From an uncultured Bacteroidales bacterium (GTDB lineage Bacteria; Bacteroidota; Bacteroidia; Bacteroidales; UBA932), in the NCBI GenBank assembly GCA_900318355.1, contig ONKE01000013.1, positions 91,814-155,813 of the forward strand: DNA of 64,000 nucleotides, in the 5' to 3' direction. Below are positions 47,427 through 63,940 of this stretch, one piece after another (the first letter of the stretch is position 1; each line of letters begins with the position of its first letter). The notes beneath the pieces were generated by a model. The model saw nothing but the letters and a program-made list of their open reading frames with translations, had not been told where the DNA came from and did no database searches. A program made the position numbers and the translations under genes.

Positions 47427-49403
47427 TTACAGGTAATCTTCGAAATAGCGGGTGACTTTGTCCATGAGGTGGACGCGGTTGTCGCCGAAGACGTTGTGTT
47501 CCGCGACGGGGTAGGGGAAGTAGTCGACTGGTATGAGGGTATCGATGCAGGCCTGGATGAAGCTGAGGCTGTGCTGCCAGACGACGGTGTTGTCGATTGC
47601 GCCCTGGCAGATGAGTAGATGGCCCTTAAGGTCTCCCGCCTTGCCGATGAGGGAAGTTTGCGCGAAGCCTTCGGGGTTGGTCTCCTCGGTTTCCATGTAG
47701 CGCTCTCCGTACATTATCTCATACCATTTCCAGTCGATTACGGGGCCGCCGGCCACGCCGACTTTGAAGACGTCCGGGTAGCTTGTCATCAGCGAGATGG
47801 TCATGAAGCCGCCGTAGCTCCAGCCATGGACGCCGATGCGGTCGCAGTCGACCCAGGGCTCGGCCATCAGGCGGCGGATTCCGACCATCTGGTCGGCCAT
47901 TTCGGCCTGTCCGCAGCGGCGGTGGATGGCCTGTTCATAGGCGAGGCCGCGGTTTTGGGTGCCGCGTCCGTCCTGGACGTAGACTACGTAGCCGCGCTGG
48001 GCCATGAGCACTTCCCAAAGGCGCACTCCGCCCAGCCATGAATCCGTAACCATCTGGGAATGAGGACCTCCGTAGACGTAGAGGACGACCGGGTATTTCT
48101 TTTCAGGGTCGAAGTCGGCCGGCTTGAAAAGACGATAGTAATTGTCGTAGCTGCCGTCGGCGGAGGGCACCGTGCCGAACTCGATTTCGCCGGTTGCATA
48201 GTCAGCAAGAGGGTCGGGGAAGGCGCGGCGGAATTTTTCGCGTCCTTTCCCGTCGGTGGAGACGACAGCGACTCCGCCCGGGTCGTTGAAGGAGGACCAG
48301 CGGTCGAGGAACCACCCTCCGTCGAGGCTTACGGCGACGTTGTGCCAGCCGCGCAAGGAAGTGAGCCTCAGAGGCTTGCCGATTCGCGTCGCTTCGACTT
48401 TCGAGGCTTTGCGGCCCTTTGCCGGAGTGAGGTCGATCCGGAACAGGTGGTTCTCAACGGGCGAGACTTCGGCGGAGGTGTAGAAGATGCTGCTTCCGCG
48501 GACTGCGGAAATGGCGACGTCGGCTTCGCAGGAGGTTATGCGCCGGACAGTGCCGAGCGTGTCGCAGAGGTAGAGCTGACGGTAGCCGTCACGGTTGGCG
48601 GTGCGGTAGACGAAGTGATAGTTTTCGCCTGTAAAATAAAGAGGGTCAAGCGGTTCCACGTATTTGTCGGAATGCTCCTCCAGCAGGGTGCGGACGAACG
48701 AACCGTCGACGGCGCGGTACATATTGAGGCGGCAGTGCTTCTGGCTTCGGTCGAGGACCTGTATGAAAATGTTGCGGCCGTCGGGCCCCCAGGAGATGTT
48801 GGTCAGGTAGCGGTCCGGGCCGAAATCGTCCGCCCGGGCGAACACCGTCTTTCCGCTGTGGCGGTCGAAAATGCCGAGCGAGACCACTTCTGAGGCCATT
48901 CCGTTCATAGGATATTTTATGCTGCGAAGCGTTCCGGTGCGGGTGGTGATGTCGAGAAGGGGGAAGTCGGTCACGGCGCTTTCGTCCTTGCGGTAAAAGG
49001 CGATTTTCGTGGAGTCCGGCGACCAGAAGACGCCGCCGTCAATGCCGAATTCGTTGCGGCTTACGCTTTGGCCTATAACCATTTGCGAGTGTTCCGGACG
49101 GGCTACGAGGACGGTGTCGCCGTCGCCGCAGCACCAGAGGCTGCCGTCGCCGGCAATGAAGGTGTCGAGACTCGTCTTTCGGGCGAAGCTGATCCCTTCG
49201 CCGGAAAGCGCGGCCATTTCCGGCCGGATGTCGGCTTCCTTGCTTCTTTGGGGCCACATCGCGGGGTTGCGAACTGCGTCATACATAGACAGTTTCTTTC
49301 CGTCTTCGGGACCGGCGGGACGGACCTGCAGGGTCTGGGCTTTTGCAGGGTAAAACGATATAGTAAGTAAAAGATACAGTGAGAGATAAGCAGTTTTTTC
49401 CAT
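47427..49403 (-). CDS. S9 family dipeptidyl peptidase IV-like protease
   Basis: 658 residues with a signal peptide (about 1-22). The N-terminal beta-propeller contains RNEFGIDGGVFWSPDSTKIA and FYRKDESAVTDFPL, typical of the DPP-IV (S9B) branch. The alpha/beta-hydrolase triad is Ser529 in HGWSYGGFM, Asp604 in GAIDNTVVWQ and His636 in PVAEHNVFG. DPP-IV removes dipeptides, often X-Pro, from peptide N-termini in the periplasm. It is divergent from the SusC cluster, suggesting a shared role in peptide use, which is inference. Confidence 0.94.
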   Translation of the reverse strand: MEKTAYLSLYLLLTISFYPAKAQTLQVRPAGPEDGKKLSMYDAVRNPAMWPQRSKEADIRPEMAALSGEGISFARKTSLDTFIAGDGSLWCCGDGDTVLVARPEHSQMVIGQSVSRNEFGIDGGVFWSPDSTKIAFYRKDESAVTDFPLLDITTRTGTLRSIKYPMNGMASEVVSLGIFDRHSGKTVFARADDFGPDRYLTNISWGPDGRNIFIQVLDRSQKHCRLNMYRAVDGSFVRTLLEEHSDKYVEPLDPLYFTGENYHFVYRTANRDGYRQLYLCDTLGTVRRITSCEADVAISAVRGSSIFYTSAEVSPVENHLFRIDLTPAKGRKASKVEATRIGKPLRLTSLRGWHNVAVSLDGGWFLDRWSSFNDPGGVAVVSTDGKGREKFRRAFPDPLADYATGEIEFGTVPSADGSYDNYYRLFKPADFDPEKKYPVVLYVYGGPHSQMVTDSWLGGVRLWEVLMAQRGYVVYVQDGRGTQNRGLAYEQAIHRRCGQAEMADQMVGIRRLMAEPWVDCDRIGVHGWSYGGFMTISLMTSYPDVFKVGVAGGPVIDWKWYEIMYGERYMETEETNPEGFAQTSLIGKAGDLKGHLLICQGAIDNTVVWQHSLSFIQACIDTLIPVDYFPYPVAEHNVFGDNRVHLMDKVTRYFEDYL

Positions 49404-49420
49404 TGCGGCCTATTTTTCTT

Positions 49421-49428
49421 CAAATATA
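49421..49428 (-). promoter_or_regulatory. Promoter -7 box for the S9 peptidase
   Basis: On the minus strand this reads TATATTTG, 17 bases before the ATG at 49403, giving a very short leader. Confidence 0.5.
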
Positions 49429-49462
49429 AGGTTTAAAATTTGATTTCTAAGAAAAAAAACCT

Positions 49463-49470
49463 TACTTTTG
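49463..49470 (+). promoter_or_regulatory. Promoter -7 box for the SusC cluster
   Basis: TACTTTTG fits TAnnTTTG, 63 bases before the susC-like ATG at 49534. TTTG (49439-49442) and TTTC (49444-49447) are -33 candidates. Confidence 0.5.
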
Positions 49471-49533
49471 TAAATATTACGGGCGGGTAGTTGCATCCCC
49501 TTTACGAACTTCCTGCCGCTTAACAAGTAGATT

Positions 49534-52500
49534 ATGAACATGTGTTTCCATTGCCGGAGGAGCGTGCTGCTCCTGGCTGTTTTTTTGTTGTTCTGCCTCC
49601 CTTCCTATGCGCAGGATTCCTCCGGAGGCCGTGAAAAGACAGTCCACGGTACGGTCGTCGACGAATCCGGCGAGCCGGTCATCGGCTGCGCCGTCTATCA
49701 GAGCGACAATGTCGGTGGCGGCGTCGCCACCAATGTCGACGGCGTCTTCGTCATCAAGGTTTCCCAGGATGTGACAGAGCTCGTTTTCGAAGCCCTCGGT
49801 TATGAAAAGGTCACCCTCCCGGTCGACAAAGTCCGCCGCGTCCGCCTCCGCTCCGAGTCGCAAAAGCTTGACGACGTTGTGGTTACCGGTATCTTCACCC
49901 GAAAGAAAGACTCCTTCACCGGTTCGGTCCAGACCATCTCCTCCGAAGAAATCAAGCGCGTCTCCAACTCCAACGTCGTCCAGGCCCTCAAGAACCTCGA
50001 CCCCTCCCTCCTCGTCCTCGAAAACCTCGAAGCCGGCTCCAACCCCAACGCCATGGCCTCCATGCAGCTGCGCGGTGCGTCGACTTTTGCAGTCGAGACG
50101 TCCGGTTTGAAGAGCAACTTCCTAAATGACGCCAATGTGCCGTTGTTTATTCTGGATGGTTTTGAGACTTCTCTGGAAAAAATAACGGACATGGACATGA
50201 ACCGTATCCAGAGCATAACTATCTTGAAAGATGCTTCCGCCAAGGCAATTTATGGTTCCAAAGGAGCGAATGGTGTTATCGTCGTAGAGACAAAGTCTCT
50301 TAATAATGAGCATACTCTTATAACATACACGGGTAATCTTGCCTTGGAAGCACCGGATTTAACGAGTTACAATCTTTGCAACTCGTTGGAAAAACTGGAA
50401 GTTGAGTATAGGGAAGGTATGTATACCGGAGTGCGCGGCAACGTGGATTCCAAGGAATTAGTGGCTCTGCAGCACCTTTATAATGACAGGCTTAGACGTG
50501 CATTGGAAGGAGAAGACAATTACTGGTTGTCAAAGCCGTTACGTATCGGCATCGGACAAAAACATACCCTGGAAGCAGAATTAGGCGGGAAAGACCTTCG
50601 TGCTCTTCTGAATGTGTCATATAATGATGTTCAGGGTGTTATGAAGGAGTCGTTCCGTGATATCCTGACTGCGCAGGCCAATGTCTCTTACAGGCGTGGA
50701 AAGTGGACGTTCCGCAATATCATGGATATTGCCAGCATGTCCAGCAGCGAGTCCCCGTGGGGGTCTTTTTCTGAGTACGCTTTGATGAATCCGTATGATT
50801 CTCCTTACGATGATGAAGGAAATCTTGTAAAGGCAGTCTGGCCCGGGGTTTACACATCTCCAGAGGGTTATTCGACCAGTTATCGTTCCCAGTACCCGGT
50901 TGGTAATCCAATGTGGAATGCCAGGGTTGGAATGCGTGATACCGGAGAATACCTGAATTTTACCGACAATTTGTATGCAGAATTGCAATTGTTTACTTTC
51001 CTTAAAATTGTGGGTCGATTCGGTATCGATACCAAAAGGACCGGATATGAGACATTTAAACCTGCCGATCATACGGATTTCCTGAGATATACCAGTGCGG
51101 ATGATTTACTCAGGCGAGGGTCTTATTCTCAAACACGCGGCACTTCTACTACCATTTCCGGAGATGTTTCAGCGCAGTTCAGTAGGACCTTTAATAAGCT
51201 GCATGACTTGTTTGCAACTGGACAATATAGTATTTCGAGTAGATCTTATTCTGAAGTTCAGCACACGGCGGAGGGATTTCCTAACAGTCATATGTCCAAT
51301 ATTTATTTCGCCCGTCAATATGCGATGGGAACGACTCCTACAGGCTATGACGGCATCTATCGTGACATCGGTTTCCTTCTAACTGTCGGTTATTCCTACG
51401 ATAACAGATATATGGCGGATGCAACGTTCAGGGCAAGTGGCGCTACTGTTTTCGGTACGAATAACCGCTGGGGCTTGTTTTGGAGTATCGGCGCGGCATG
51501 GAATCTTCACAATGAAGATTTCTTAAAAGGGGCGGCATCGTGGCTTCAGCAACTTAAACTTCGCGGGAGCGTCGGTTCTTCCGGCAATCAGAATTATTCG
51601 GTTGCCACATCACTCCCAGTTTATAACTATTTCAGTTCCAAGTATTATAATGGTTTTGCCGGAGCTTCTCTCAGCAATATGGCAAATCCTTATCTTGGAT
51701 GGGAGGAAAAACTCGAATACAATATTGGCCTTGACTTTCGGGCCAAACGGATCACCGCCACATTGGACGCCTATCTGGCGGATACCCGTAATCTTTTGTT
51801 CGCCAGGAGTCTTGTTCCTTCAACAGGATTCAGTACCGTGCAGGATAACATGGGCGTTGTCAGGAATCGTGGGTTGGAGCTTAGTTTAGGGTATACGATA
51901 TATCAGCATGCGGCTTCATATGTTACGGTATTCGGCCGTTTTGCTTTCAATGACAACCGAGTCTTAAAGATATCCGAAGCTATAGAAGAATATAATCGCC
52001 AGCAACAAGCCAATGCAAAGGAAACCGGCGCGAATGCTCCGGTGATACAGTATTATGACGGTGTTCCTCTCCATAGTATTTGGGCTGTACGATCGCTGGG
52101 TGTAAATCCGTTGGACGGACAAGAAATATTCTTGGATCGAGACGGAAATATGACAGACACGTGGGACCCCGCAGATTTAGTCAACTGCGGTTCGTCCGAT
52201 CCGGTTCTGACTGGTAATTTCGGGGTTAACGGTGAGGTGAAAGGAATTGGATTCAACGTTACTTTCCGCGTTCAGGCGGGGGGGTATTTATACAATAATA
52301 CGCTCTTGCAGAAAGTTGAAGGAGCAGACATCGTTGATAATGTTGACCGTCGCTTGTTCCTTGGACGCTGGGCCGGAGCCGGTTCCGAGTCACAGTTCCT
52401 AAATGGTTTCAAAAATGGAATTGTCGGCAATGTTCGGACGACTTCGCGTTTTGTGCAAAGAAACAATCAGCTGAACGTCTCCGCCATGTCACTTTACTAT

Positions 52501-52659
52501 GAGTTTCCTGCTCGCTGGATTGCCAGTCTGCATATGCGTCGTCTCAGGCTGTCATTCAATACCAATGACCTATATACCTTCTCGTCTATTGATATTGAGC
52601 GTGGAACCAGTTATCCCTATGCGCGAACTTTTACCTTCTCCTTAACGGCAACCTTTTAA
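49534..52659 (+). CDS. SusC/RagA-type TonB-dependent receptor (mosaic gene)
   Basis: An outer-membrane import channel of 1041 residues. Order: signal peptide (about 1-27), carboxypeptidase-regulatory-like domain (about 36-105), TonB plug (about 115-255, with LKDASAKAIYGSKGANGV), and a 22-strand barrel ending in FSLTATF. It works with the SusD lipoprotein, which caps the channel. The DNA is mosaic: the first ~560 bases are GC-rich (39 of 60 at 49981-50040) and the rest AT-rich (21 of 60 at 50281-50340), with the change near 50.08-50.10 kb inside the conserved plug. The substrate is unknown; downstream proteases suggest peptides. Confidence 0.95.
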   Translation: MNMCFHCRRSVLLLAVFLLFCLPSYAQDSSGGREKTVHGTVVDESGEPVIGCAVYQSDNVGGGVATNVDGVFVIKVSQDVTELVFEALGYEKVTLPVDKVRRVRLRSESQKLDDVVVTGIFTRKKDSFTGSVQTISSEEIKRVSNSNVVQALKNLDPSLLVLENLEAGSNPNAMASMQLRGASTFAVETSGLKSNFLNDANVPLFILDGFETSLEKITDMDMNRIQSITILKDASAKAIYGSKGANGVIVVETKSLNNEHTLITYTGNLALEAPDLTSYNLCNSLEKLEVEYREGMYTGVRGNVDSKELVALQHLYNDRLRRALEGEDNYWLSKPLRIGIGQKHTLEAELGGKDLRALLNVSYNDVQGVMKESFRDILTAQANVSYRRGKWTFRNIMDIASMSSSESPWGSFSEYALMNPYDSPYDDEGNLVKAVWPGVYTSPEGYSTSYRSQYPVGNPMWNARVGMRDTGEYLNFTDNLYAELQLFTFLKIVGRFGIDTKRTGYETFKPADHTDFLRYTSADDLLRRGSYSQTRGTSTTISGDVSAQFSRTFNKLHDLFATGQYSISSRSYSEVQHTAEGFPNSHMSNIYFARQYAMGTTPTGYDGIYRDIGFLLTVGYSYDNRYMADATFRASGATVFGTNNRWGLFWSIGAAWNLHNEDFLKGAASWLQQLKLRGSVGSSGNQNYSVATSLPVYNYFSSKYYNGFAGASLSNMANPYLGWEEKLEYNIGLDFRAKRITATLDAYLADTRNLLFARSLVPSTGFSTVQDNMGVVRNRGLELSLGYTIYQHAASYVTVFGRFAFNDNRVLKISEAIEEYNRQQQANAKETGANAPVIQYYDGVPLHSIWAVRSLGVNPLDGQEIFLDRDGNMTDTWDPADLVNCGSSDPVLTGNFGVNGEVKGIGFNVTFRVQAGGYLYNNTLLQKVEGADIVDNVDRRLFLGRWAGAGSESQFLNGFKNGIVGNVRTTSRFVQRNNQLNVSAMSLYYEFPARWIASLHMRRLRLSFNTNDLYTFSSIDIERGTSYPYARTFTFSLTATF

Positions 52660-52662
52660 ACT

Positions 52663-54156
52663 ATGAATCGCAAGTTTTTACTTCTTTTGGCTTCCGTCCT
52701 TATTGCAGGAGGTGCAGTTTCTTGCGGGAAATGGCTTGAAGCTACTTCCTCAGGTCAGATATCGGACTCCGACCTGTTTTCTTCCAGGAGTGGTTTTTTG
52801 GAGGCCTTGACCGGTGTCTATATCGATCTTGCTTCCTCTCAGTGTTATGGACAAAACTTCACATGGGGAGTCAACGATATAGTGATTTATCCGTACACAG
52901 CCAATTCTTACGCGTCGATTAGCACGTGGCAGAACCATCTTTACACGAATCAGACAGCTGTTCCCATCCTTAAGAGTATGTGGCAGGGCGCATATCATGT
53001 GATCGCAGATATCAATCGTCTGATTGCCGAACTGGAAGTAACAGATGTGCTTACTGATAAGGAAGAAAAGAGTCTTATACGTGGCGAACTTCTCGCTTTG
53101 CGTGCTTTTATACATTTTGACCTTCTGCGCATGTATGGCCCTATCGGTTTTTCCGAAGAGGATAAACAGAAGTTAGTCATACCTTATGCTACGGCCTATT
53201 CTCTTGATCCGGCCCCGCAACATACCTTGGAAAAAACGATGTCCCTGATCGAGTCGGATATTGATGCGGCTTTACAGGCGCTTTCGGAAGATCCAATAAC
53301 AGGCAAGGCTTCTGCACGGTTCTTTTCCACCTGTAATGCAGATGGTTATTGGAACGGCCGTTTGCGCCATATGAACTACTACGCTGCGGAGGCCCTTAAG
53401 GTTCGCGTCCTTTTATGGCAGGACCGTGTGGCGGAAGCCGCTTCATTGGCGAAGACCATTGCTGAAGAGGCACTGGCTGTAGGTGCTGTGTCTTGGACAG
53501 ATCCGGATGCGCAACTCAAGGCAGTCAGCAGTGATGTCAGGGATTGGACTTTCTCTACAGAGCAATTATTCTCCTTGGATGTTACATCGCTCTATGATAA
53601 TGTTCAACCATATTTCTTCAACAACATTAAGGGAAGTGTCTCCTTGGAGGTGGATCCTCTTGTCGTTGAGAATTTTTTCAACCCTGAATCAGAGGACGGA
53701 AATGAAGATATTCGTGGCCCGGCAATGATGTTGTCTTATAACGGATCCTCATTCAAATTGAATAAGTATTTCGGATCGTCCTCACAGAGTGCCGAGTTCC
53801 GCGACAGAGTCCCGCTGATTCGCTTATCAGAGCTATATCTTATTCAAGCAGAGGGTGCTTTGCAGGCAAATGATTCGGAAACGTTTTTCTCCTGTCTTGA
53901 TGCTATACGGGCCCATCGCGGTATTACAGGAGAAAGTCGCGGCTCTGTTCCATTCGATGAAATTGGTATCTTCGAAGAATATGTTCGAGAGTTTGCAGGG
54001 GAAGGCCAATTATTTTTCTATGAAAAACGCGTATATGGGCGCAACCGGGCACCGGTAAGGACAGTTTCACCTTATTTGACGAATGTGCCGGCGTCAAAAT
54101 TATTTGTTTACCCTTATCCGTTGGAGGAGATTTCGTATGGTCGGGTTCAAGAATAG
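52663..54156 (+). CDS. SusD/RagB-type surface lipoprotein
   Basis: A 497-residue substrate-binding partner of the SusC channel, with lipobox AVSC. TPR-like helices support the fold (GAYHVIADINRLIAELEV; ELLALRAFIHFDLLRMYGPI; AAEALKVRVLLWQDRV), and the C-terminal part holds LIRLSELYLIQAEGALQAN, a hallmark of the family. It starts 3 bp after the susC-like stop. The gene is AT-rich compared with the window, like the 3' part of its partner. Confidence 0.95.
   Translation: MNRKFLLLLASVLIAGGAVSCGKWLEATSSGQISDSDLFSSRSGFLEALTGVYIDLASSQCYGQNFTWGVNDIVIYPYTANSYASISTWQNHLYTNQTAVPILKSMWQGAYHVIADINRLIAELEVTDVLTDKEEKSLIRGELLALRAFIHFDLLRMYGPIGFSEEDKQKLVIPYATAYSLDPAPQHTLEKTMSLIESDIDAALQALSEDPITGKASARFFSTCNADGYWNGRLRHMNYYAAEALKVRVLLWQDRVAEAASLAKTIAEEALAVGAVSWTDPDAQLKAVSSDVRDWTFSTEQLFSLDVTSLYDNVQPYFFNNIKGSVSLEVDPLVVENFFNPESEDGNEDIRGPAMMLSYNGSSFKLNKYFGSSSQSAEFRDRVPLIRLSELYLIQAEGALQANDSETFFSCLDAIRAHRGITGESRGSVPFDEIGIFEEYVREFAGEGQLFFYEKRVYGRNRAPVRTVSPYLTNVPASKLFVYPYPLEEISYGRVQE
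54123..54129 (+). promoter_or_regulatory. Shine-Dalgarno deciding the DUF4843 start
   Basis: GGAGGAG lies 7 bases before the ATG at 54137, inside the end of the SusD gene. It supports this start over an upstream in-frame ATG at 54083. Confidence 0.65.
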
Positions 54157-54973
54157 AATTTTGTGCTTTTTAGAACAAATCGGAGCTTCAACTTGTCTGT
54201 TGCTCCTGTGTGTTTCCTTGTCCGGATGCAAGAAGGATGAAATCAAACCTTATGCGCTGGAAGATTGTGCCGTAGTGTTTGAAGGCGTTACAAACAGCTT
54301 TTCAATGAAAGGGCACAATGATGAACAGACTGTGGAATTTAGGATACCAGTCAAAGTGGTCGGTCCACATGCCGATTACGATAGGCCGATAGGTTTGGAA
54401 GTCACCGACTCTACTGCTGTTCTGGGAAGAGATTTCGAAATCAAATCTGCAGTGATTCCCGCCGGTGCTCTGAAAACGGATATCATTATCAGTGTTAACC
54501 AACTGCCGGAAGATGTTACGGAGCGTGCAGTCCGTTTCAACTTGGTTCCGAATGATCATTTCCGTGCTGGGTACCCTAAATACAGCAAAGCTGTTGTTTC
54601 CTGGTCCGAGTTGTATGCGAGACCTCCATATTATGTCTGGAGATACTGGTATTTGTATATATGTCCTGCCTATAGCCAAGCCTTTCACAAACTGATGGTC
54701 GATGAGTTCGGAACAGATGTGGAGAAGTATACTTTACAGCGTGCGCGGGAAAAAGAAGAGCCGGACCGATACATATTCAAAACCCTCACTTGGTGGTATG
54801 CAGCGGCTCGTCATCTTTATGAAACGGTTGCTGCTTATGATGCAGCGCATCCTGACGCTCCCATGATGCACAGTGATGACTACGAGGAGTACAAATCTTA
54901 TGAGGTTGCCGTTGGAGAGGGCGTTCGTCCAGAGGTCATACCTACCATTCTTTCAACACTGACCGTGCTATGA
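54137..54973 (+). CDS. DUF4843 domain lipoprotein
   Basis: 278 residues from the ATG at 54137, which overlaps the SusD stop by 20 bp and has a good Shine-Dalgarno. Lipobox LSGC is followed by KKDEIKPYALEDCAVVFEG, the typical N-terminus of DUF4843 proteins encoded after SusC/SusD. A calx-beta-like stretch follows (VTDSTAVLGRDFEI, then IPAGALKTDIIISV). The Trp/Tyr-rich middle (PPYYVWRYWYLYICPAYS) could bind ligand. Function is unknown; a surface accessory of the SusCD complex is likely. Confidence 0.85.
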   Translation: MVGFKNRILCFLEQIGASTCLLLLCVSLSGCKKDEIKPYALEDCAVVFEGVTNSFSMKGHNDEQTVEFRIPVKVVGPHADYDRPIGLEVTDSTAVLGRDFEIKSAVIPAGALKTDIIISVNQLPEDVTERAVRFNLVPNDHFRAGYPKYSKAVVSWSELYARPPYYVWRYWYLYICPAYSQAFHKLMVDEFGTDVEKYTLQRAREKEEPDRYIFKTLTWWYAAARHLYETVAAYDAAHPDAPMMHSDDYEEYKSYEVAVGEGVRPEVIPTILSTLTVL

Positions 54974-56544
54974 AACATTCATCATTTGCTATAATGCTGG
55001 TTATTTTATCTGTTTGCGCGCTTTCCTGTTATAAAGATCTCAGTAAAGAGCGTGAGACGGTCATCCCTGATATAGTTATAACCGGAATCGAACCGGTTAT
55101 CCATGTTTCTTATGGACAGACTGTCCAAATAGATGCACATGTTTCTCAGATTGGCCGGACGGATGATGATTTTGATTATTTGTGGGAAATGGATCGTGTT
55201 GCGGGACGGACTGTTGTCAATACTTACGACTATGACAGGGTGGAGATGAGTCGGACGACGAGTTTTACTTTCGAAGTAACCAATTCACCATCGACGGTAC
55301 CGTATATGATTACCTTTCAAGTAACGGACAAGAAGACAGGTGTAAAAGCCATTGCTTCATGTGCAATGTATGTCGAGAGTGCGCTTGGAGAAGGGCTGTT
55401 TGTGGCTCACTCCCGTGATGGTGGCCAGACGAGCGAAGTCGATCTTGCCGCCTCAGAAGCACTCACATATGGCTTCTCCGCTTCCGGCATCCGGTATACT
55501 CGCGATTTGGTTGCTTTGGCCAATGGTGGTGAGCCGCTCCAGGGGCGTATCAATGCTATGTCACAATTTGTCGCCACCCGTTCTGCATCTTTTGACGATC
55601 CGCAATACTTGATTGGAACCGATGATCATTTCTATTCATTTGATAATCTGACCTTTAAGTTGAGAGACTCCGACAAGGGCCTTTTCAATACATCTCCTAG
55701 TACGGGGTTTAGGACGACATTGATTGCTCCGTTTGCATCTTATTGCTTATTTGCTATTATCAATAAAGATATCTATGCTTGCAGTACAATAATTGACTAC
55801 TCTTTTTCAAAAGTTCAATATCCCCCGACACCGTCCTCTATTTTCGATGAAAAAAATGTATCCTGGGGAGTGCAGGATCAGTGCGATCTGACAGTATTTG
55901 ACCCTGGCCGCGGGATGTTTTCATATATGCTTGGTTGGCGTACTGGACAAAGTGGGCTTGGGGCAATCGGAACTAATTTTCCATTTTCTCTCGAAGGCTC
56001 GAAAGCGCTCGGCGCAGGTGGTGGCAAGGTGAATTCAAGCGGCCATACGCAGTTTCATAATTTCTTGGTTCAGGCTCCTTCCGGTCAGTATTATTTGCTT
56101 AGAATTGATGGTCGTAACAATGTTTATGAATATTACTTGCTTGAAGGAAATGACTTGGATAAAGTCGTGTCTTTTGCTTCATGCGACAATGCTGATATCT
56201 GCTACTATGCTACTTCTACGGATATATACGCCATTCTGATAACAAGCGGACAGGCGATTATACGTCATGTTGCTTTCAGCCCGCAATCGTCTGGTGAAAA
56301 GATTACGCGTATCGTCCATTACAAACAGGGGTGGTATGGTGTCGCGAGAAACGACGCGTCATATGAATTCCAAAATAGAACCAACCGACTGCAAATACTT
56401 GTCATTACGTATAATGAATCTACTGGTGAAGGGAAAATATACTTGCGACCCTTCAATCTCAGCACCGGTCTGTTTACGGTGCTGGATAATGGCGTCTTGA
56501 CAGGCTTTGGTGAAATATCTGCCGTTTGTCCGTCCCTCCGTTAG
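54970..56544 (+). CDS. PKD-like family surface lipoprotein
   Basis: 524 residues with lipobox ALSC. A PKD/Ig-like domain lies at about 35-125 (YGQTVQIDAHVSQIGRTDDD, then FDYLWEMDRV and TFQVTDKKTGVKAIASC). The rest (about 135-520) has repeated beta segments suggestive of a propeller (LIGTDDHFYSFDNL; YYLLRIDGRNNVYEYYLLEG). This PKD-like plus DUF4843 arrangement after SusC/SusD is known in Bacteroidetes. It overlaps the previous gene by 4 bp and is strongly AT-rich (16 of 60 GC at 55741-55800). Confidence 0.85.
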   Translation: MKHSSFAIMLVILSVCALSCYKDLSKERETVIPDIVITGIEPVIHVSYGQTVQIDAHVSQIGRTDDDFDYLWEMDRVAGRTVVNTYDYDRVEMSRTTSFTFEVTNSPSTVPYMITFQVTDKKTGVKAIASCAMYVESALGEGLFVAHSRDGGQTSEVDLAASEALTYGFSASGIRYTRDLVALANGGEPLQGRINAMSQFVATRSASFDDPQYLIGTDDHFYSFDNLTFKLRDSDKGLFNTSPSTGFRTTLIAPFASYCLFAIINKDIYACSTIIDYSFSKVQYPPTPSSIFDEKNVSWGVQDQCDLTVFDPGRGMFSYMLGWRTGQSGLGAIGTNFPFSLEGSKALGAGGGKVNSSGHTQFHNFLVQAPSGQYYLLRIDGRNNVYEYYLLEGNDLDKVVSFASCDNADICYYATSTDIYAILITSGQAIIRHVAFSPQSSGEKITRIVHYKQGWYGVARNDASYEFQNRTNRLQILVITYNESTGEGKIYLRPFNLSTGLFTVLDNGVLTGFGEISAVCPSLR

Positions 56545-56553
56545 CATGATTGT

Positions 56554-59175
56554 ATGAAAATGAACCGAATAATCCGTTTCTTATGCGTGTGTGTCCTTGT
56601 GACTTTGCATGCCAATGTGCTTTTTGCCGATGCACCTTCGCAGAGGAAAGAATCCTCGTCGAAAGTGCGTGTTGAAAAAAAGACTTCAAAAGCCTCCGTC
56701 CGCAAAGGCAAGAAGGGCAAGGAAGCCCCCAAGGATACGACCAAGACCAAGTCGAAGTACGAGAAACTGCTCGAAAAGCCGGAGCAGAGTGACGATGGCG
56801 TCGTGTCCGTGCGCATGAAAAAGGGCAAGGTCTATCTGGAGATTCCGGATTCCCTGCTGGGCAGGACCTTCGTCATGTCCACTACGATTTCCGCTATCAG
56901 CGACAATACCCTGGGCCTTGTAGGCGCCAAGCCCGCCCGCGACCTTAAGTGCATCACCTTTACGAAGGTGGACAGCTCTGTCTTTGTGCGTCCCGTAACC
57001 TTCGCCGTCACCGCGGACGATGCGGGGATTCTCAGCGCCCTGGCCAAGAGCAACATCGGCGCGATTGAGCAGAAACTGCCCGTCAAGGCGAAATCCCCTT
57101 CCGGGGCGAGCGTGGTCGATGCCACCGAATGGCTGATGGGCCCGTCGGACGACTTCAACCTGTTCAAGTTCTTTATCGTCGGCGGTTACACCTATGCCGA
57201 ATCCTACAAGAAGGACCTTTCGTACCCCTTGAGAGTCAAGGCCTTCGACGATAATTTCTCCTTTACGGCGAGCCGTTCCTACACCTATACGGCCACCAAC
57301 CCCCGGACGATGAAGGTTGTCCGGAAAAACGCCTCCTGCACGGCGGAAGTGACGACATCCTTCCTCCTGTTGCCGGAGAAGACCTACCATCCACGTATGG
57401 CCGACCCGCGCATCGGTTTCTTCGATACCGAGCGTCAGGTCATGGGAGATTACGCCCACAAGAGCCGCACCATTCATTTCGTGAACCGCTGGCGTCTGGA
57501 GCCTTCCGATACGGCGGCCTACCGTCGCGGCGAGCTGGTCGAGCCTGTGCGTCCCATAACCTATTATATCGACAGCGATTTCCCCGCCTGGTGGAAGCCA
57601 TATATTGTCGATGCCGTCGAGCAGTGGAACGAAGTGTTCGAGGAAGCAGGCTTCAAGAATGCGGTCCGCGCAATCCCTTTCCCCGAGAATGACCCGGATT
57701 TCGACCCTGACAACATCCGCTATTCCTGCATTCGCTACGTCCCCATCGGCATCCAGAATGCCATGGGCCCGTCCTGGGTGGATCCTCGCAGCGGTGAAAT
57801 CATCAACGCCAGCGTCTGGGTTTTCCACGATGTGATCAAGCTACTGAGCACCTGGGTCTTCGTCCAGACCGCCCAGGCGGATGAGGACGTCCGCACGGCC
57901 CACATCCCGCAGGAAGTCCTCGGCGACGCCCTGATGTACGTCATCAAACACGAAGTCGGTCACACCCTTGGCCTGATGCACAACATGGGCGCATCCAACG
58001 TCATTCCGCTGGAGTGCCTCCGCGATCCTGCCTTCACGCAGGAAAACGGTACCACGATGTCCATCATGGACTACGCCCGTTTCAACTATGTCGCCCAGCC
58101 CGGCGACAAGGAGCGCGGCGTAAAGCTCACCCCTCCGCGCTTCGGAAAATACGACCGTTATGCCATCAAATGGGGCTATACACCGCTGTTCGACCAGCCT
58201 TCATTCGAAGAGGAGACGGCCCTGACGACCCGCTGGATCACCGACTCGCTGGCCGCCTCGCCCGTGTATCGCTATGGAATCCAGATGATCGACTGGCGAC
58301 TGTTCGACCCCCGCAACCAGACAGAAGACCTGTCCGACGACGTGTTCGGCGCTTCCGACTATGGCCGGGCCAACCTCAAATACATCATGGCGCGGTTCCA
58401 GGACTGGATCGCCGATGAGGACGACCCCGACTACGAGTTCCGCACCGATGTCTATATGGGTCTGGTAAATCAATATCTGCGTTATGCCGGCCACGTGCTC
58501 TACAACATCGGCGGCCTCTACCGCAACCAGGTGCTTGCCGGCGACGGACAGTGGACCTTCCGCAACATTCCGCGTCAGAAGCAGCTCCGTGCACTGGACT
58601 ATCTGTTCGGAATGATGGACGATCTGGGCTGGATGGAAGACAAGGCCGTCCTCGGCCGCCTGCCTATTGCGGGAAGCCCGGTTTCGCAGGTGCGCGCCAG
58701 CCTGCTCGGCAACCTGATGCTGGCTCCGTTCATGGCCATGACTTCCGACGGCGTTGACACCTACGAACTCAGTCCTTCCGAGGTACTGGACCGGATTTGG
58801 GACTATGTCTGGAAACCTACCGTTTCCGGAAAAAAACTCTCCGCAGCGGAGCGCAGGAATCAGGAACTGTTTGTCAGCAACCTGATGACTTCCGGCTCCT
58901 TTGCGATGCCCGGCGCGAAGTCTTCCCTGGCTGAAGAGGCTGCTCCTGCAAGGGAGGATGACAGCCCGATGGGCATCATCACTTACGATGCGGTCTCCGG
59001 GTTTTCCTGGACGCCGCGGGTGATCATCAACTCGACGTCCCTTACCCAGGCCACGCTGTATGCCTACCTGACGAAGTCGTATGAGGCAATGAAAAAGCGT
59101 GTGGGAGGGGCTTCGGACGCAGACAAGGCTCACTACCGCCTGTTGATGGCCCAGATTGATTACAGTGTCAGATAA
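56554..59175 (+). CDS. Zinc-dependent metalloprotease, DUF5117/metzincin type
   Basis: 873 residues with a signal peptide ending near VLFADA and no lipobox. A Lys/Ser-rich linker (about 28-80) leads into the DUF5118/DUF5117 region (DGVVSVRMKKGKVYLEIPDS at about 90-110, onward). The metzincin zinc site HEVGHTLGLMH lies at 466-476 with Glu467, and the Met-turn is Met505 in SIMDYARF, so this copy should be active. It probably degrades proteins at the envelope. The first ~100-150 bases are less GC-rich than the rest, marking the right edge of the AT-rich cassette. A related copy follows. Confidence 0.93.
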   Translation: MKMNRIIRFLCVCVLVTLHANVLFADAPSQRKESSSKVRVEKKTSKASVRKGKKGKEAPKDTTKTKSKYEKLLEKPEQSDDGVVSVRMKKGKVYLEIPDSLLGRTFVMSTTISAISDNTLGLVGAKPARDLKCITFTKVDSSVFVRPVTFAVTADDAGILSALAKSNIGAIEQKLPVKAKSPSGASVVDATEWLMGPSDDFNLFKFFIVGGYTYAESYKKDLSYPLRVKAFDDNFSFTASRSYTYTATNPRTMKVVRKNASCTAEVTTSFLLLPEKTYHPRMADPRIGFFDTERQVMGDYAHKSRTIHFVNRWRLEPSDTAAYRRGELVEPVRPITYYIDSDFPAWWKPYIVDAVEQWNEVFEEAGFKNAVRAIPFPENDPDFDPDNIRYSCIRYVPIGIQNAMGPSWVDPRSGEIINASVWVFHDVIKLLSTWVFVQTAQADEDVRTAHIPQEVLGDALMYVIKHEVGHTLGLMHNMGASNVIPLECLRDPAFTQENGTTMSIMDYARFNYVAQPGDKERGVKLTPPRFGKYDRYAIKWGYTPLFDQPSFEEETALTTRWITDSLAASPVYRYGIQMIDWRLFDPRNQTEDLSDDVFGASDYGRANLKYIMARFQDWIADEDDPDYEFRTDVYMGLVNQYLRYAGHVLYNIGGLYRNQVLAGDGQWTFRNIPRQKQLRALDYLFGMMDDLGWMEDKAVLGRLPIAGSPVSQVRASLLGNLMLAPFMAMTSDGVDTYELSPSEVLDRIWDYVWKPTVSGKKLSAAERRNQELFVSNLMTSGSFAMPGAKSSLAEEAAPAREDDSPMGIITYDAVSGFSWTPRVIINSTSLTQATLYAYLTKSYEAMKKRVGGASDADKAHYRLLMAQIDYSVR

Positions 59176-59190
59176 GGGAGGACGGTGCTT

Positions 59191-61686
59191 ATGAAACTCA
59201 AAAGATTCATCCTGCTTGCGTTGGCCCTGAGCCTGGTACTGCCCGTCCGGGCGGCCCGGCCCGCACGGCCTGCCAAGGGGAAAAAGGGAGAAAAGACCGA
59301 GGCGGCCGCTCCCGCGCCGAAAAAATCGCCGTATGAGAAATTCCTCGCCAAGAAGGGCCTGAAAAAATCCGAAGACGGACCGATACGCCTCTATCTTGAC
59401 GGTAAAAAGTTCATGGCGGAGGTCCCTGATTCCCTGATGGGCCGCAAGCTCCTGCTCAGCACTTCATTGCGCAAGAGCAGCAGCCCGTGGTTCATCGCCG
59501 GGGACAATGTTTCTCCCCAGCGCGTGTTCGTGTTGCACAAGACCGATTCGCTGCTGTTGCTTACCAATGCCTCCGCGCTGTCTGTTGTCGCCGACACGTC
59601 CCTTTCCGCCGCAATCGGCCGCTCCACCATCCCTCCGACGGCTTATGCATTCCCTCTCCGATATCGCAACGGGGATTCTACGGCTGTCGTAGTCGATCTC
59701 TCCAAACTCTTCGCACCGTCAAACAAGGATGCCTTTGACATAAAGGGCATCAGCGTCAATGAGCGCAGTACGGTCAATACATTCACCCCGAAGGCGGAAT
59801 TGACCCGCTTTGAGCGTTTCGTGCGTTTCGGCTCGAGTGTGGGTGTTCAGCAGGAGCTGACTTTCAGCGTCTCACAAAGCTTTGCCATGGGAGGCGGTCT
59901 GGCCATGGTTTCCTCAGAGGAGGACGCATTCTTTACGGGTACTTTCCAGACAACCCTGACGTTGCTGCCGGAAACTTCGATGCCGCTCCGCAAAGCCGAT
60001 CCCCACGTGGGAGTCCAGCAGACCCCGTTTGCTACTTATCGTTCCGACAAGGGCTTCCGTAGCGACGGCGCCGCCCTGCGATGGGATGTCCGCGACGGAA
60101 AGAAGATCACCATCTACGTCGACACGCTTTTCTCGCCCTCGTGGCAGGCGGCCATCCGCAAGGGAATCCTCTCCTGGAATCCGGCCTTCGAGGCCATAGG
60201 TCTCGGCCGCGTCATCGATGTGCGCCCCTATCCGTCTTACGGACGCTTCTCCGTAGATGACCCGCTGGTGTCCACCGTCCGGGCGGGAGAGTCCAAAAGC
60301 GGAAGCTCCCTTCGCGGCTCGATGTTGACTGATGTCAGTTCGGGGCGGATCCTTGGATGCACCATCGTCGTACCTTCAGGCTATGCCGAGGGTGCCGGCG
60401 AAAAGGGTCGGCTCGGAATCAGCGACGTTGATGCCCGTTATGCGACTTATTACCCTTCCGACGAGGCGATTTGCGAGGTCCTGCGCGCCGAGATGATGAA
60501 ACTGTTCGGCAGGATGCTGGGCCTCCAGGCCAACCTGGCGGGCTCCGGGGCATATACGCCCTCGCAGCTGAGAAACGCCGATTTTACCCGTGTGAACGGA
60601 CTTACCGGCTCCGTGACCGACAATGTACTTTTCAACTCCCTGGCCAGGCCTGGCGACCGTGAGAGGGGCGTTGTCACCATCATCAACCAGATCGGCCCCT
60701 ATGACCGCCATGCAATTGAGTGGCTCTACCGGATTTTCCCCGAGGGAACGGACGAGGCTGCCGCGCTTTCGGCTCTCGTGCGCAGCAAAACCGGCAAGCG
60801 AGAATATGTGTATGTCCCGCAGATCCTGGGCTATCCCGACTACCGCGGCCTTTCCGGCGACCTGGGAAGCGATCCGCTGGCCCTTTATGACGCCTCGATG
60901 GCCAGGCTCCGTTTTGTCGCCCGCGAGGGAGCATCCTGGCTGCAGGGTGTCAATCCGGAGGAAGACAGCTATCCCATTATCTTTCTTGAGCGGGTCTGGC
61001 TGCGGGCCTATTCCCTTCAGAACCTTCTCATGAACAATGTAGGCGGCGTGGCTTTCCTTGACCTGGAAGAGGGAAGGAAATACCAGGTGCAGCCCGAGGC
61101 TTTCCAGCGTGCATGTCTCCAGCGTGCAATGGACGGGATATCGGATTGCGACTGGATTGAACAATCGCCCCTCAACCGTCCTGTTACGGCCAATACCGAC
61201 TATGCTGCATTTTCGCGCTCCAGCGCTACGGTTTCAATGTCGCGGGTTGCAGCCGTTGCGCTGGCCGAGAAACTTGGAGGTTCCTCCTTCACGGTACGGG
61301 CCTTCCTTGACCAGTTGACGGATTCCATGACGTCTTCCATCCGCAGTGGGAAGATGGCCGCCGGCACTGAATTGCAGATATCCCGTTATATCGCCATGCT
61401 CACCGGCTTCCATCCCGTGCTGAAGACCCGCATGAAGGAACACTTCCACCAGAGAGGCCTCTCCGACGCGGAGGAAGATGCTTTAGCCCGCGCGCTGCAG
61501 GTGCCGTACTCCGGCGTTCCGGCCTGGTGTCTGGAAGACCTGCCGGAAGAGGGCTACCTCCAGATGGAACGTCTGCGCAAGATACTCTCGGCCGGGAAGG
61601 CCTCTGCCCGCGGCGATGTGGACCGTGGCAGGATAGACTACCTGCTCCGAAAGGTCGAGGCGGCCCTTGAAGAAGACAAAAAATAG
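59191..61686 (+). CDS. DUF5117-type metalloprotease homologue lacking zinc ligands (predicted pseudoenzyme)
   Basis: 831 residues; the ATG at 59191 begins a signal peptide (MKLKRFILLALALSLVLPVRA). It aligns with the preceding protease through DGPIRLYLDGKKFMAEVPDS and, without gaps, through the active-site region to ARPGDRERGV. At the zinc site His466, Glu467, His470 and His476 of the neighbour become Lys437, Leu438, Arg441 and Ala447. The Met-turn Met is a Thr. The frame is intact and GC-rich, so it is not a decayed gene. A binding, chaperone or regulatory role is inferred. It starts 15 bp after its partner, with GGGAGG upstream. Confidence 0.88.
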   Translation: MKLKRFILLALALSLVLPVRAARPARPAKGKKGEKTEAAAPAPKKSPYEKFLAKKGLKKSEDGPIRLYLDGKKFMAEVPDSLMGRKLLLSTSLRKSSSPWFIAGDNVSPQRVFVLHKTDSLLLLTNASALSVVADTSLSAAIGRSTIPPTAYAFPLRYRNGDSTAVVVDLSKLFAPSNKDAFDIKGISVNERSTVNTFTPKAELTRFERFVRFGSSVGVQQELTFSVSQSFAMGGGLAMVSSEEDAFFTGTFQTTLTLLPETSMPLRKADPHVGVQQTPFATYRSDKGFRSDGAALRWDVRDGKKITIYVDTLFSPSWQAAIRKGILSWNPAFEAIGLGRVIDVRPYPSYGRFSVDDPLVSTVRAGESKSGSSLRGSMLTDVSSGRILGCTIVVPSGYAEGAGEKGRLGISDVDARYATYYPSDEAICEVLRAEMMKLFGRMLGLQANLAGSGAYTPSQLRNADFTRVNGLTGSVTDNVLFNSLARPGDRERGVVTIINQIGPYDRHAIEWLYRIFPEGTDEAAALSALVRSKTGKREYVYVPQILGYPDYRGLSGDLGSDPLALYDASMARLRFVAREGASWLQGVNPEEDSYPIIFLERVWLRAYSLQNLLMNNVGGVAFLDLEEGRKYQVQPEAFQRACLQRAMDGISDCDWIEQSPLNRPVTANTDYAAFSRSSATVSMSRVAAVALAEKLGGSSFTVRAFLDQLTDSMTSSIRSGKMAAGTELQISRYIAMLTGFHPVLKTRMKEHFHQRGLSDAEEDALARALQVPYSGVPAWCLEDLPEEGYLQMERLRKILSAGKASARGDVDRGRIDYLLRKVEAALEEDKK

Positions 61687-61726
61687 AACAACCTATTTAT
61701 ATTATTAACCCCAAAAACTGTTTTTT

Positions 61727-63871
61727 ATGAAACGATTCTTAACAATCTTCGCAGCCGCAGCCGCCCTGCTGGTGGCCGGTTGCCAGAAGGCCGAAGTGGT
61801 GGATACTCTGAATCTCAGTGCGTCCACTATTACCGTTCCGTCAGGCGGAGCTCAGCAGTCGCTCACGTTCAATGCAAATGGAGCATGGGTGCTGACCTGT
61901 GATCAAGCGTGGGTCGAATTCGACAAAAAGTCTGGAGAGGCAGGAGATGTCTCGGTGAAAATGACTGTGAAGCCGAATGACACCTACTCGGCACGTAGCG
62001 CTAAGGTTACAATTACAATCGGTCAGAAGAACACAGAGATTTCCATTCAGCAGGAAGAAGCTTCTTCTTTCGGATCTACCTTTGTGTATAAGATTGACGG
62101 CGAGGCCCAGGATATTGATGTGAATGTTGCTTCTTCAGTGGACTACACAGTTACAATTGAGGAAGGTGTGAATTGGCTCAGCGTCGTTAAGACCAAGGCG
62201 GCGGTTACGGAAGGTACAATCCAGATTCACGTTGAAGCAAATAAGGGTATCAGCGTGCGTCGTGGCAGTTTTACTGTTTCGGCCGGCAGTTACTCGCAGG
62301 AATTCGCGGTAGAGCAGGAAGTAGGTTACATTGATGTAACGATTGCATCTGCCGTGTACGTAGGCAACCGCGACAGTATCTTCGATACGGAAACGTATCA
62401 GTACAACGTTTTCGATGAGTATGTAATTACACTGACAGCCGAAGACGGCTCCTCCGTTGTCGTTCCGGTCAATGTGTCCGGTGCGGGCAGCAATCCGCAG
62501 GAGTCCATTCCTACAGGAGCATTTGTTGCAGACGCATCCGGCAAACATGAGCATCGCACCTTCTCGATAAAACCGCTTGGTGGAGCATCCCTCTATTATG
62601 CCAAATTCGTTTCAGGCGAGACCGAGACACCCATTTATGATGGTGAAGTGAATATTTCGAGTTCTTCCAACGGATATTCTATCACTACCGGTTTGGTTGA
62701 TGAGGCCGGAAACCCGCGAAGGATTCGTTACAACGGTCCTATAGAGATTACCGAAGATGCTGCCGGTCTGTTTATATCTCAGCCCGGAATCCAGGGTAAT
62801 TATTATACAAGGAATGCAACCAATACTTATGAGTGGATCACATCAATTTATCCCAACGTGTTGCAACCGGAGGACAGCGAGATCCATGTGCGCAGCATAA
62901 CGCTCCATCTGTTCGGCCCTGCCGGTGTCGCTCCTACCGGGAAGGGTGATTTACCTACTGGGACCTTTACTTATGGCAATCCGGCACCAGATGCGAAATA
63001 TGGCAAAAATGGGAACATACCCAATGCCGCCAATTCGTTCTATTTCACAGCCTATATTGATAAACAGAATGAAGATGGCTATTATATTCTCGTAGATAGC
63101 GTGGATACCAAGAGCAGTCCGTTGCCTGAACTCGTCATTACCAAGATTTCCGATAGTATCTACAGTTTTTCCATTTCTGGGACAATTGTCTATGAGGTGA
63201 AGCATCATGATGACGAATCAGGAACGGATGTCGTGGATGAGACTTATGTTCTTCCGGTGAAGTATGAGACCGACAAGGCGGTGATTCCTGATGGTTCAAA
63301 GGGTAATTATCTATGGGCTCCCGAGCCGGGAGAGATGAACGTTGATGGCTCATCTCCCATGCTGTCATATTACTGGTATCTTGGAGGCGCATCTGCTTTC
63401 GGTCATGCGTTCTTACTTCCTGCTGTGAACTTCGGGACTGTTACAGCAAGTATCGTATTGACTACTAAAACAGCTCTTACGTTCGACAGGGCTACTACGG
63501 TTGTTCCTGCCGGGAAGTATGTCTATTCTACGACGCCTGGAGACTATGTACTTGTTCCGGCCCGTTATTCTACAACGGCTAAAAGTTATGATGAAGCTCC
63601 CGTGACTAGTTCCTATGCTCGTATTCTTGATTCTTACTACGAGGTTACTTATTTCCCTACGGGTGGTAATATTGAAGTAAAGGCTGATGGTACGTATATT
63701 TTTGATGTCGAATGCACTTCAACTGGCGAGAATCCTACCACTGCTACTCTTAGGGGAACGACTACACTTATTCCTATGATGGCATCTATGGGCATGTCAT
63801 CGATGGATCGCAGCAGCTGGGCTGGACGTTTCTGGTTCCCGCCGCAGGCGCCGGCAACCGACCCAGAGTAA
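61727..63871 (+). CDS. BACON-domain surface lipoprotein
   Basis: 714 residues with lipobox VAGC. Two BACON-type Ig-like domains follow: about 28-110 (with NGAWVLTCDQAWVEFDKKSG and SAKVTITIGQKNTEISIQQE) and about 115-200 (with EEGVNWLSVVKTKA and EFAVEQEVG). The remaining ~500 residues are beta-rich with no family I recognise (LSYYWYLGGASAFGHAFLLP). BACON domains in Bacteroidetes surface proteins are thought to act as spacers or mucin and glycan binders. The composition is AT-richer than the protease genes (25 of 60 GC at 63421-63480). It is the last gene before a terminator. Confidence 0.85.
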   Translation: MKRFLTIFAAAAALLVAGCQKAEVVDTLNLSASTITVPSGGAQQSLTFNANGAWVLTCDQAWVEFDKKSGEAGDVSVKMTVKPNDTYSARSAKVTITIGQKNTEISIQQEEASSFGSTFVYKIDGEAQDIDVNVASSVDYTVTIEEGVNWLSVVKTKAAVTEGTIQIHVEANKGISVRRGSFTVSAGSYSQEFAVEQEVGYIDVTIASAVYVGNRDSIFDTETYQYNVFDEYVITLTAEDGSSVVVPVNVSGAGSNPQESIPTGAFVADASGKHEHRTFSIKPLGGASLYYAKFVSGETETPIYDGEVNISSSSNGYSITTGLVDEAGNPRRIRYNGPIEITEDAAGLFISQPGIQGNYYTRNATNTYEWITSIYPNVLQPEDSEIHVRSITLHLFGPAGVAPTGKGDLPTGTFTYGNPAPDAKYGKNGNIPNAANSFYFTAYIDKQNEDGYYILVDSVDTKSSPLPELVITKISDSIYSFSISGTIVYEVKHHDDESGTDVVDETYVLPVKYETDKAVIPDGSKGNYLWAPEPGEMNVDGSSPMLSYYWYLGGASAFGHAFLLPAVNFGTVTASIVLTTKTALTFDRATTVVPAGKYVYSTTPGDYVLVPARYSTTAKSYDEAPVTSSYARILDSYYEVTYFPTGGNIEVKADGTYIFDVECTSTGENPTTATLRGTTTLIPMMASMGMSSMDRSSWAGRFWFPPQAPATDPE

Positions 63872-63899
63872 AACTCTTTGTTCAGGAAATTATGCAATT

Positions 63900-63928
63900 A
63901 AGGGCTGGCCTGTGGGCTAGCCCTTTTT
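63900..63928 (+). terminator. Rho-independent terminator after the BACON gene
   Basis: An 11-bp stem with one G-U pair (63900-63910 with 63915-63925), a four-base loop and a run of five T. It closes the SusC cluster transcript. Confidence 0.88.
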
Positions 63929-63940
63929 GGCGGATAGATT

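Follow-up and report, generated by a model that had tools for sequence, protein, structure and literature searches.

Probable replacement of a SusC/SusD surface module by a divergent allele, with breakpoints inside genes, in an uncultured Bacteroidales genome

Introduction

How does a susC gene come to change its base composition abruptly in the middle of its reading frame, and why do the genes behind it share the new composition until a protease gene begins? This question is raised by a stretch of 64,000 nucleotides (the window) from an uncultured Bacteroidales bacterium of the UBA932 lineage, which is part of contig 42 of a draft genome of 77 contigs and 2.31 Mb. From 49.5 to 63.9 kb the window carries an operon-like run of genes, all on one strand, coding for SusC, SusD, a DUF4843 protein, a PKD_2 protein, two Met-zincin proteases and a BACON protein. 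A first-pass annotation, made from the letters alone, had proposed that the conserved gene ends are native and that the part between them was imported by cassette exchange through homologous recombination. We have compared the operon with that of the most similar available relative (G014, hereafter the sister), in which gene content, gene order and upstream neighbours are the same. The two are alike up to ca. codon 181 of susC, unlike through the PKD_2 gene, alike again from ca. codon 50 of the first protease gene, and unlike once more from codon 24 of the BACON gene, and the unlike parts also have an odd composition for this genome. The proposal is supported by the fact that identity to the sister breaks at both composition steps, and we consider it very probable that the surface module was swapped, by homologous recombination, for a divergent allele from an unsampled relative of lower GC.

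Results and Discussion

A composition step inside susC

The segment from 50,081 to 56,700 has a GC content of 45.7%, against a minimum of 54.2% among 2,206 other intervals of 6.6 kb. The six GC counts of 60-base lines that the first-pass annotation had quoted (39, 21, 21, 16, 33, and 41) are all exact, and the sharp change that it had seen in the plug segment of susC was recovered at codon 181 (50,074; interval 50,068–50,083), where the GC content of third codon positions (GC3) falls from 0.79 in codons 31–180 to 0.47 from codon 181 onward. The low state continues, as had been described, through susD (0.45), the DUF4843 gene (0.45) and the PKD_2 gene (0.42) up to the start of the first protease gene, with GC3 back up at codon 50 (56,701) and values of 0.75 and 0.70 in the genes of protease 1 and protease 2.

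The single-step statistic of this susC is 66.2, while the maximum reached in 1000 codon shuffles of the same gene was 18.5. It is the largest step among the 33 SusC-type genes of the genome (37 plug matches); the next one (31.1) goes upward, and no other downward step exceeds 13.5. Frames were chosen by their similarity to SusC, giving 33 genes here and 16 in the sister; L143, L147, and L162 were dropped for having no SusC-like frame, and three plug genes here (out of 37) and one in the sister (out of 19) lay outside the step analysis. The drop of 0.33 in GC3 is also the largest among 44 susC homologues, from the operon group and outgroups, the next being 0.27 (locus L074); this table leaves out five partial susC genes shorter than 950 aa (L075, L084, L085, L086, and L106).

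Comparison with the sister genome

The susC gene of the sister is full-length and has no step, with a GC3 of 0.78 and 0.79 in the two parts, and a search for a relative with both the same full-length susC and the same step found none. Protein identity between the window and the sister is 90% for gmk, 98% for fba, 72% for an S9 peptidase and 81% for codons 1–180 of susC, then 59% for the rest of susC, 37% for SusD, 53% for the DUF4843 protein and 39% for the PKD_2 protein, and again 89% for protease 1 (from codon 47) and 79% for protease 2. Flanks at 72–98% enclose a middle at 37–59%, the level of unrelated alleles, and the breaks coincide with the composition steps. In blocks of 15 codons, identity drops at susC codon 181 (0.93 to 0.50) and recovers at codon 46 of the protease gene (0.33 to 0.92); the best change-points for identity and GC3 taken together are the susC codon 181 and protease codon 50 located above. 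Synonymous positions behave in the same way. Where the residues are identical, the two genomes share the codon at 1511 of 2329 positions in the flanks (comprising codons 31–180 of susC, both proteases, the S9 peptidase and fba; 1255/2003 without fba, the most conserved flank gene) and at 406 of 1050 positions in the middle (p = 1e-45), and within susC alone the counts are 76/133 and 203/513 (p = 4e-4). Since synonymous codons at identical residues break too, amino-acid selection alone does not account for the break. What is found is what an allele replacement looks like, that is, orthologous flanks and an orthologous locus in a relative, identity that breaks on both sides, and synonymous and amino-acid divergence that both jump within the tract.

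The native 5′ part of susC (codons 1–178; 49,534–50,067, on the plus strand like all the genes of the run) contains the signal peptide, a CarbopepD_reg_2 domain, what we take to be the TonB-box region, and the first part of the plug. The remaining plug and the whole beta-barrel (50,074–52,659) make up the imported part, which is 54–63% identical to alleles of the same operon group and 36–46% to outgroups. The complete product scores above the curated cut-offs of TIGR04056 (566 bits vs. 368.25) and TIGR04057 (58.2 vs. 46.2). Directly after susC come the gene of a SusD-family lipoprotein (52,663–54,156; PF14322/PF07980), that of the DUF4843 lipoprotein (54,137–54,973; PF16132), for which the start codon is our choice and a possible upstream ATG lies at 54,083, and that of the PKD_2 lipoprotein (54,970–56,544; PF16407), the only PKD match of the genome, all three imported on our reading. 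The signal sequences of the SusD, DUF4843, PKD_2 and BACON proteins end in a cysteine and look lipoprotein-like, as judged by eye, and by the same inspection neither the two Met-zincin proteases nor the S9 peptidase has such a signal. The 5′ end of the protease 1 gene (56,554–56,700), coding for a signal peptide and a Lys-rich linker, is divergent and of lower GC3, and contains or adjoins the 3′ junction of this imported segment (tract 1). Because the first ca. 45 residues of protease 1 are variable in all relatives aligned, we bracket the junction between 56,545, just after the PKD_2 stop at 56,544, and 56,701. From there on protease 1 (56,701–59,175; DUF5118/DUF5117/Met-zincin) and protease 2 (59,185–61,686; Met-zincin) are native.

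Is such a pair unusual among related operons? There are 30 operon pairs with a protease identity of at least 0.81, and in the other 29 the 3′ segment of susC (susC3, the 5′ segment being susC5) is 0.89–0.97 identical, compared with 0.60 for the window and the sister. Together with their SusD (0.38) and PKD (0.40) values this puts them close to the medians of the complete set of 190 pairs (0.63, 0.44, and 0.41 for susC3, SusD and PKD). The independent sample is small, as 28 of the 29 pairs fall within a single clade of 8 loci, and the table of 20 loci leaves out L059, L075, L087, L088 and the loci that do not have all six genes compared. A further comparison comes from the 15 reciprocal-best SusC pairs between the two genomes. 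In all 14 other pairs identity after codon 180 is 0.76–0.99 (synonymous 0.54–0.94) and the loss of identity from 5′ to 3′ never exceeds 0.04; the window pair goes from 0.89 to 0.60 at this codon, and from 0.57 to 0.40 in synonymous identity.

A second tract in the BACON gene

Low GC, absent here from the earlier description, returns in the BACON gene and extends from ca. 61.8 kb to the contig end. The GC3 of this gene is 0.47 vs. 0.65 in the sister, and synonymous identity to the sister is 22/23 in codons 1–23 and 78/215 in the rest (p = 2e-8). The change is located at codon 24 (61,796; breakpoint 61,796–61,799), four residues past the lipobox cysteine. The leader in front of it (61,709–61,797), which includes the start region, the signal peptide and the lipobox, aligns with that of the sister with only two mismatches, far fewer than the neighbouring genes, and this near-identity may stem from strong constraint or mark a point of crossover. 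The first 30 codons of the BACON gene are better kept than the remainder in five other close pairs too, but there the remainder is still 0.71–0.91. Among 18 pairs with a protease identity of at least 0.81, the window pair has the lowest BACON identity (0.36), followed by L104/L106 (0.46), and the other 16 are at 0.65–0.91. The body of the gene (61,796–63,871), coding for a lipoprotein, is on this evidence a second imported tract (tract 2), which runs to the contig end and has its far end beyond it. A multi-copy leader driving the exchange of BACON genes was also considered and discarded: a single full copy of this 111-bp leader is present in the genome, and its other matches are pieces of 15–38 bp.

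Recurrence in the genus

The window is not the only operon of its family with such a pattern. In the genome G068 (locus L074) the GC3 of susC is 0.64 up to codon 301 and 0.34 afterwards, with 0.34 in susD, 0.35 in the DUF4843 gene, 0.31 in the PKD gene, 0.56 in protease 1 and 0.43 in protease 2 and BACON, while the neighbouring frames are mostly at 0.54–0.68. The step statistic of this susC (81.6) is higher than the 66.2 of the window. In G260 (L076), whose susC is 86% identical to that of G068, the drop falls at the same codon (299–301 of G068), and 60-codon blocks across it go from 0.73 to 0.32 in one gene and from 0.72 to 0.29 in the other. The whole-gene statistic of G260 is just 21.5, its first 120 codons being lower. 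This case is one of composition only, and the background GC3 around both loci comes from mechanical reading frames, only some of which could be recognised, by their start, as real genes. A mosaic common to two separately assembled species is hard to explain as misassembly. The low state persists in these two loci though ca. 40–50% of the comparable codons differ in most blocks, which looks like slow amelioration, or else the low state is maintained.

Another case is found between two species in which the block can be followed as DNA. The operons of G023 and G280 (L022 and L058) are 89–100% identical in blocks from susC codon 357 (354–375) to PKD codon 195 (183–207), and their flanks are 59–92% identical; synonymous identity is 0.88–0.96 inside the tract vs. 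0.58–0.64 outside. To judge from these sequences, most of the same surface block would have been exchanged recently between species. Counting the window, three events in one operon family are likely, with susC breakpoints that correspond to codons 181, ca. 294 and ca. 362 of the window gene. The variation of these breakpoints between species disfavours a site-specific enzyme, and the surface block acts as a unit that is exchanged repeatedly, unlike a site-specific switch.

Some susC genes show GC3 steps in the opposite direction. In L117, L127, L116, and L114, all from this genome, the first 73–131 codons are at 0.44–0.63 and the rest at 0.73–0.84, which could be an effect of the 5′ end or an exchange of the N-terminal extension. 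In L067 GC3 goes up from 0.69 to 0.88 at codon 187, near the position of the window breakpoint, and its susD–PKD genes have a higher GC3 than its proteases. We have not counted any of these five as exchanges, because the first 70–130 codons often have a lower GC3 and no identity break has been shown for them.

Phylogeny, donor and direction

Trees of the separate segments were built for 25 loci by a quick method (LG+G4). The window and the sister are sisters in susC5 (support of 99 in the Shimodaira–Hasegawa-like approximate likelihood ratio test, SH-aLRT), in protease 1 (100) and in protease 2 (100), at path lengths of 0.26, 0.13, and 0.25. The path between them is 0.89 in susC3, and the nearest row of any kind to the window is 1.66 away in susD and 1.51 in PKD. 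The conflict between the segments is one of distance and branch length and not significantly one of topology, a pattern that an imported allele without close relatives among the sequences compared would produce. The disagreement between the 5′ and 3′ phylogenies, on which the first-pass annotation had made its proposal depend, is thus present in the distances but does not reach significance in the topology.

There are several points that weigh against a replacement or blur its outline. The susC3 tree still joins the window and the sister weakly (88.9), with long branches and a warning from the tool, and their grouping is not rejected by the approximately unbiased (AU) test for susD (p 0.09) or PKD (p 0.27). 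The searches for a donor were also negative: nothing was closer than the sister (64% over the whole susC) in 400 genomes of the genus, the best match to the imported part of susC in 398 genomes of the family was 63%, and the best match to PKD was 44% in 399 genomes of the genus (largely the same as the 400), with none except this genome itself among 393 genomes at order level. The genus holds more genomes than those drawn for these searches, and a tract nearly identical to that of an identifiable donor, a feature of recent events, was not found in up to 400 genomes per search; the donor would probably be an unsampled relative of lower GC. The 3′ junction of tract 1 sits in the region of protease 1 that varies in all relatives aligned. 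Divergence among BACON genes is fast, as illustrated by L104/L106, where protease identity is 0.82 but BACON identity 0.46 (a candidate for another exchange, or simply fast divergence), and for this reason the case for tract 2 draws less on identity over the whole gene than on the low GC3 and the abrupt change in synonymous identity. Finally, the ligand and function of the operon are those suggested by its genes: it probably serves TonB-driven nutrient uptake, with peptides as the presumed substrate because of the protease genes that it includes.

The direction of the exchange also has to be considered. The sister could have been the recipient instead, or both operons could have been replaced at different times, which we regard as unlikely. 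The middle of the sister is itself far from the other 18 alleles (0.57–0.63 in susC3, 0.35–0.42 in SusD, 0.35–0.44 in PKD) and its GC3 averages 0.05 below that of its own flanks, so that it could have been replaced earlier. However, it is the middle of the window's operon that stands out as foreign from its own genome by GC3, with the largest step of the 33 SusC-type genes, a downward one, and the susC of the sister has no step. For these reasons the simplest reading is that the lineage of this genome was the recipient of the tract.

Alternative explanations

Less probable again is an assembly chimera, in which the assembler would have left the native genome at the run shared by the two susC genes, followed the operon of another species and returned at the protease. 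The fragmentation of the draft does speak for it, and an identical run of 36 bp at the 5′ junction would suffice for a switch at small k. But such an artefact would need three junctions (both ends of tract 1 and the start of tract 2), and near the 3′ junction the exact matches to the fetched alleles are of at most 25 bp, that one lying 115 bp downstream. In addition, the genome has no second PKD gene, GC3 falls at one and the same codon of susC in G068 and G260, which were assembled separately, and the same anatomy is described for ragA in strains of Porphyromonas gingivalis (PMC11817032).

It is very improbable that no transfer took place and that the middle became divergent and AT-rich where it stands, through fast diversifying selection with a local mutational or codon bias. 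Surface proteins do diverge fast, as the medians for SusD and PKD given above illustrate, but the codons at identical residues break as well, the edges are a few codons wide and lie inside reading frames, the sister keeps a high GC3 in the same genes, and none of the 14 other SusC pairs has such a break.

Site-specific shuffling, by an invertase shufflon or from silent cassettes as at the SusC/SusD loci of Bacteroides fragilis, where the same gene families are shuffled (PMC5729914), can practically be set aside (the first-pass annotation had compared this locus with SusC/SusD shuffling in Bacteroides), with no direct or inverted repeats of at least 20 bp over 49.7–62.0 kb, no match to the resolvase family PF00239 in the genome, matches to the integrase family PF00589 on contigs 1, 4, and 25 only, no other SusC copy in the genome that is more than 33% identical to this one (19 of 39 candidates scored), no second copy of the PKD gene, and breakpoints whose codon differs from species to species.

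For these two families, the statement that no recombinase is in the window holds for the whole contig. The edge of a mobile element (integrative and conjugative element, ICE) was likewise considered and rejected, as there is no tRNA in the window and no PF00589 or PF00239 match on the contig; transposases were not searched for.

A possible mechanism

In the replacement by homologous recombination that we favour, most of the SusC channel, its lid (SusD) and two companion surface proteins appear to be foreign in tract 1. Over both tracts the exchanged parts would be the SusC barrel and four lipoproteins (SusD, DUF4843, PKD_2 and BACON), and the parts kept would be the N-terminal extension of SusC, its TonB-box region and first plug part, and the three proteases (protease 1 without its signal-peptide region). 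Donor DNA would have entered the cell, and RecA-type crossovers would have resolved it at short conserved stretches, such as the island coding for GSNPNAMASMQLRG in susC and the leader of the BACON gene. The former is a 36-bp run (50,032–50,067), the longest exact match of the operon (49,400–63,990) to 47 non-sister loci, the next being of 26 bp. It is shared with L068, whose susC is 60% identical after codon 180, and it ends at the 5′ change-point interval, so this island, our proposed crossover site, has the position at which one would expect divergent alleles to recombine by homology. The mosaic may have been retained since barrel, lid and companion lipoproteins would work as one complex that needs a single source, and the TonB-contacting N-terminus of SusC, like the proteases, may be interchangeable and hence have stayed native. 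Gene order and lipobox are what suggests placing the DUF4843 and PKD_2 proteins in the SusCD complex.

Comparison with known systems

The replacement of ragAB-type alleles is a better comparison than the shufflon, and the ragAB locus of P. gingivalis is the closest precedent. Across the four ragAB types of P. gingivalis and P. gulae, RagA hardly varies in its first 150 residues, RagB is heterogeneous over its whole length, and horizontal transfer between the two species has been suggested (PMC11817032); RagAB and other surface variants form a mosaic that is unrelated to the phylogeny based on single nucleotide polymorphisms (SNPs) (PMC5266723). As there, a SusC/SusD pair occurs at one locus in very different types with the 5′ segment kept: the 5′ segment of susC is independent of type and the rest of susC together with SusD is type-specific (81% vs. 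59% vs. 37% to the sister), in a comparison where each species is represented by one genome. While ragAB, as described in these sources, concerns a species pair and two genes, here the alleles are deeply diverged, four genes and a second tract in the BACON gene are involved, breakpoints are placed to a few codons, and the case comes from an uncultured genus with further likely events.

In Bacteroides ovatus and B. xylanisolvens, an exchange of polysaccharide utilization loci (PULs) by homologous recombination at flanking nodes has been proposed, with a transfer route like that of chromosomal replacement in B. fragilis (PMC8845570). There, too, recombination at conserved sequences would swap surface genes for nutrient uptake without a mobile element. 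However, the crossovers of that system lie in core genes and entail the gain or loss of entire loci, whereas in this operon they fall within susC and the BACON gene and at the protease, with no change in gene content. In B. fragilis, large chromosomal transfers with replacement were ascribed by the authors to RecA (PMC5729914). The same gene families are diversified there by recombination, and a chromosomal replacement of this kind, similar to that by high-frequency recombination (Hfr) strains, is a possible route in our case; but the shufflon of B. fragilis uses inverted repeats, which were not found here, and the replacements are of hundreds of kb, compared with 6.6 kb. SusC, SusD and further surface lipoproteins are known to form stable utilisomes (PMC7618045), and the same kinds of parts were exchanged together in this operon, although utilisomes are glycan systems with defined lipoproteins, and here membership of the complex is judged by gene order and lipobox only. 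Selective sweeps over susC/susD have also been reported in five gut species (PMC12916291). Among the literature matches listed, mostly outside subscription journals, no title dealt with intragenic breakpoints of multi-gene SusCD exchanges at base level with a retained TonB-coupling end.

It is tempting to speculate, though we would not yet bet on it, that in this genus, and perhaps widely in the Bacteroidota, the barrel, SusD and the lipoproteins are a natural exchange module that moves by crossovers within susC, with the resident TonB-coupling N-terminus kept, as well as the secretion signal in the case of BACON. If true, the specificity of transporters would evolve as foreign surface complexes are docked to an energy-coupling base that itself stays fixed. 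The point at which a SusC has been cut and rejoined in nature is probably located here to ca. 16 bp. The locus is a natural experiment on which SusCD parts are interchangeable, in which the barrel, the lid and two lipoproteins travel, the BACON lipoprotein travels separately, and the TonB-coupling domain and the proteases stay. The function of foreign barrels on a resident plug and N-terminal extension becomes testable in this way, and mosaic genes of this kind will be misplaced when treated as one evolutionary unit.

Upstream neighbour

The operon is preceded by a divergent native gene for an S9/DPPIV-like peptidase (47,427–49,403, minus strand; PF00930/PF00326), found at the same place in the sister and with a GC3 of 0.76. 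The first ca. 117 residues of this peptidase (49,050–49,403) are only 0.33–0.48 identical to the sister in blocks, with a synonymous identity at the level of the flanks (28/45), a combination that points to fast protein change without replacement.

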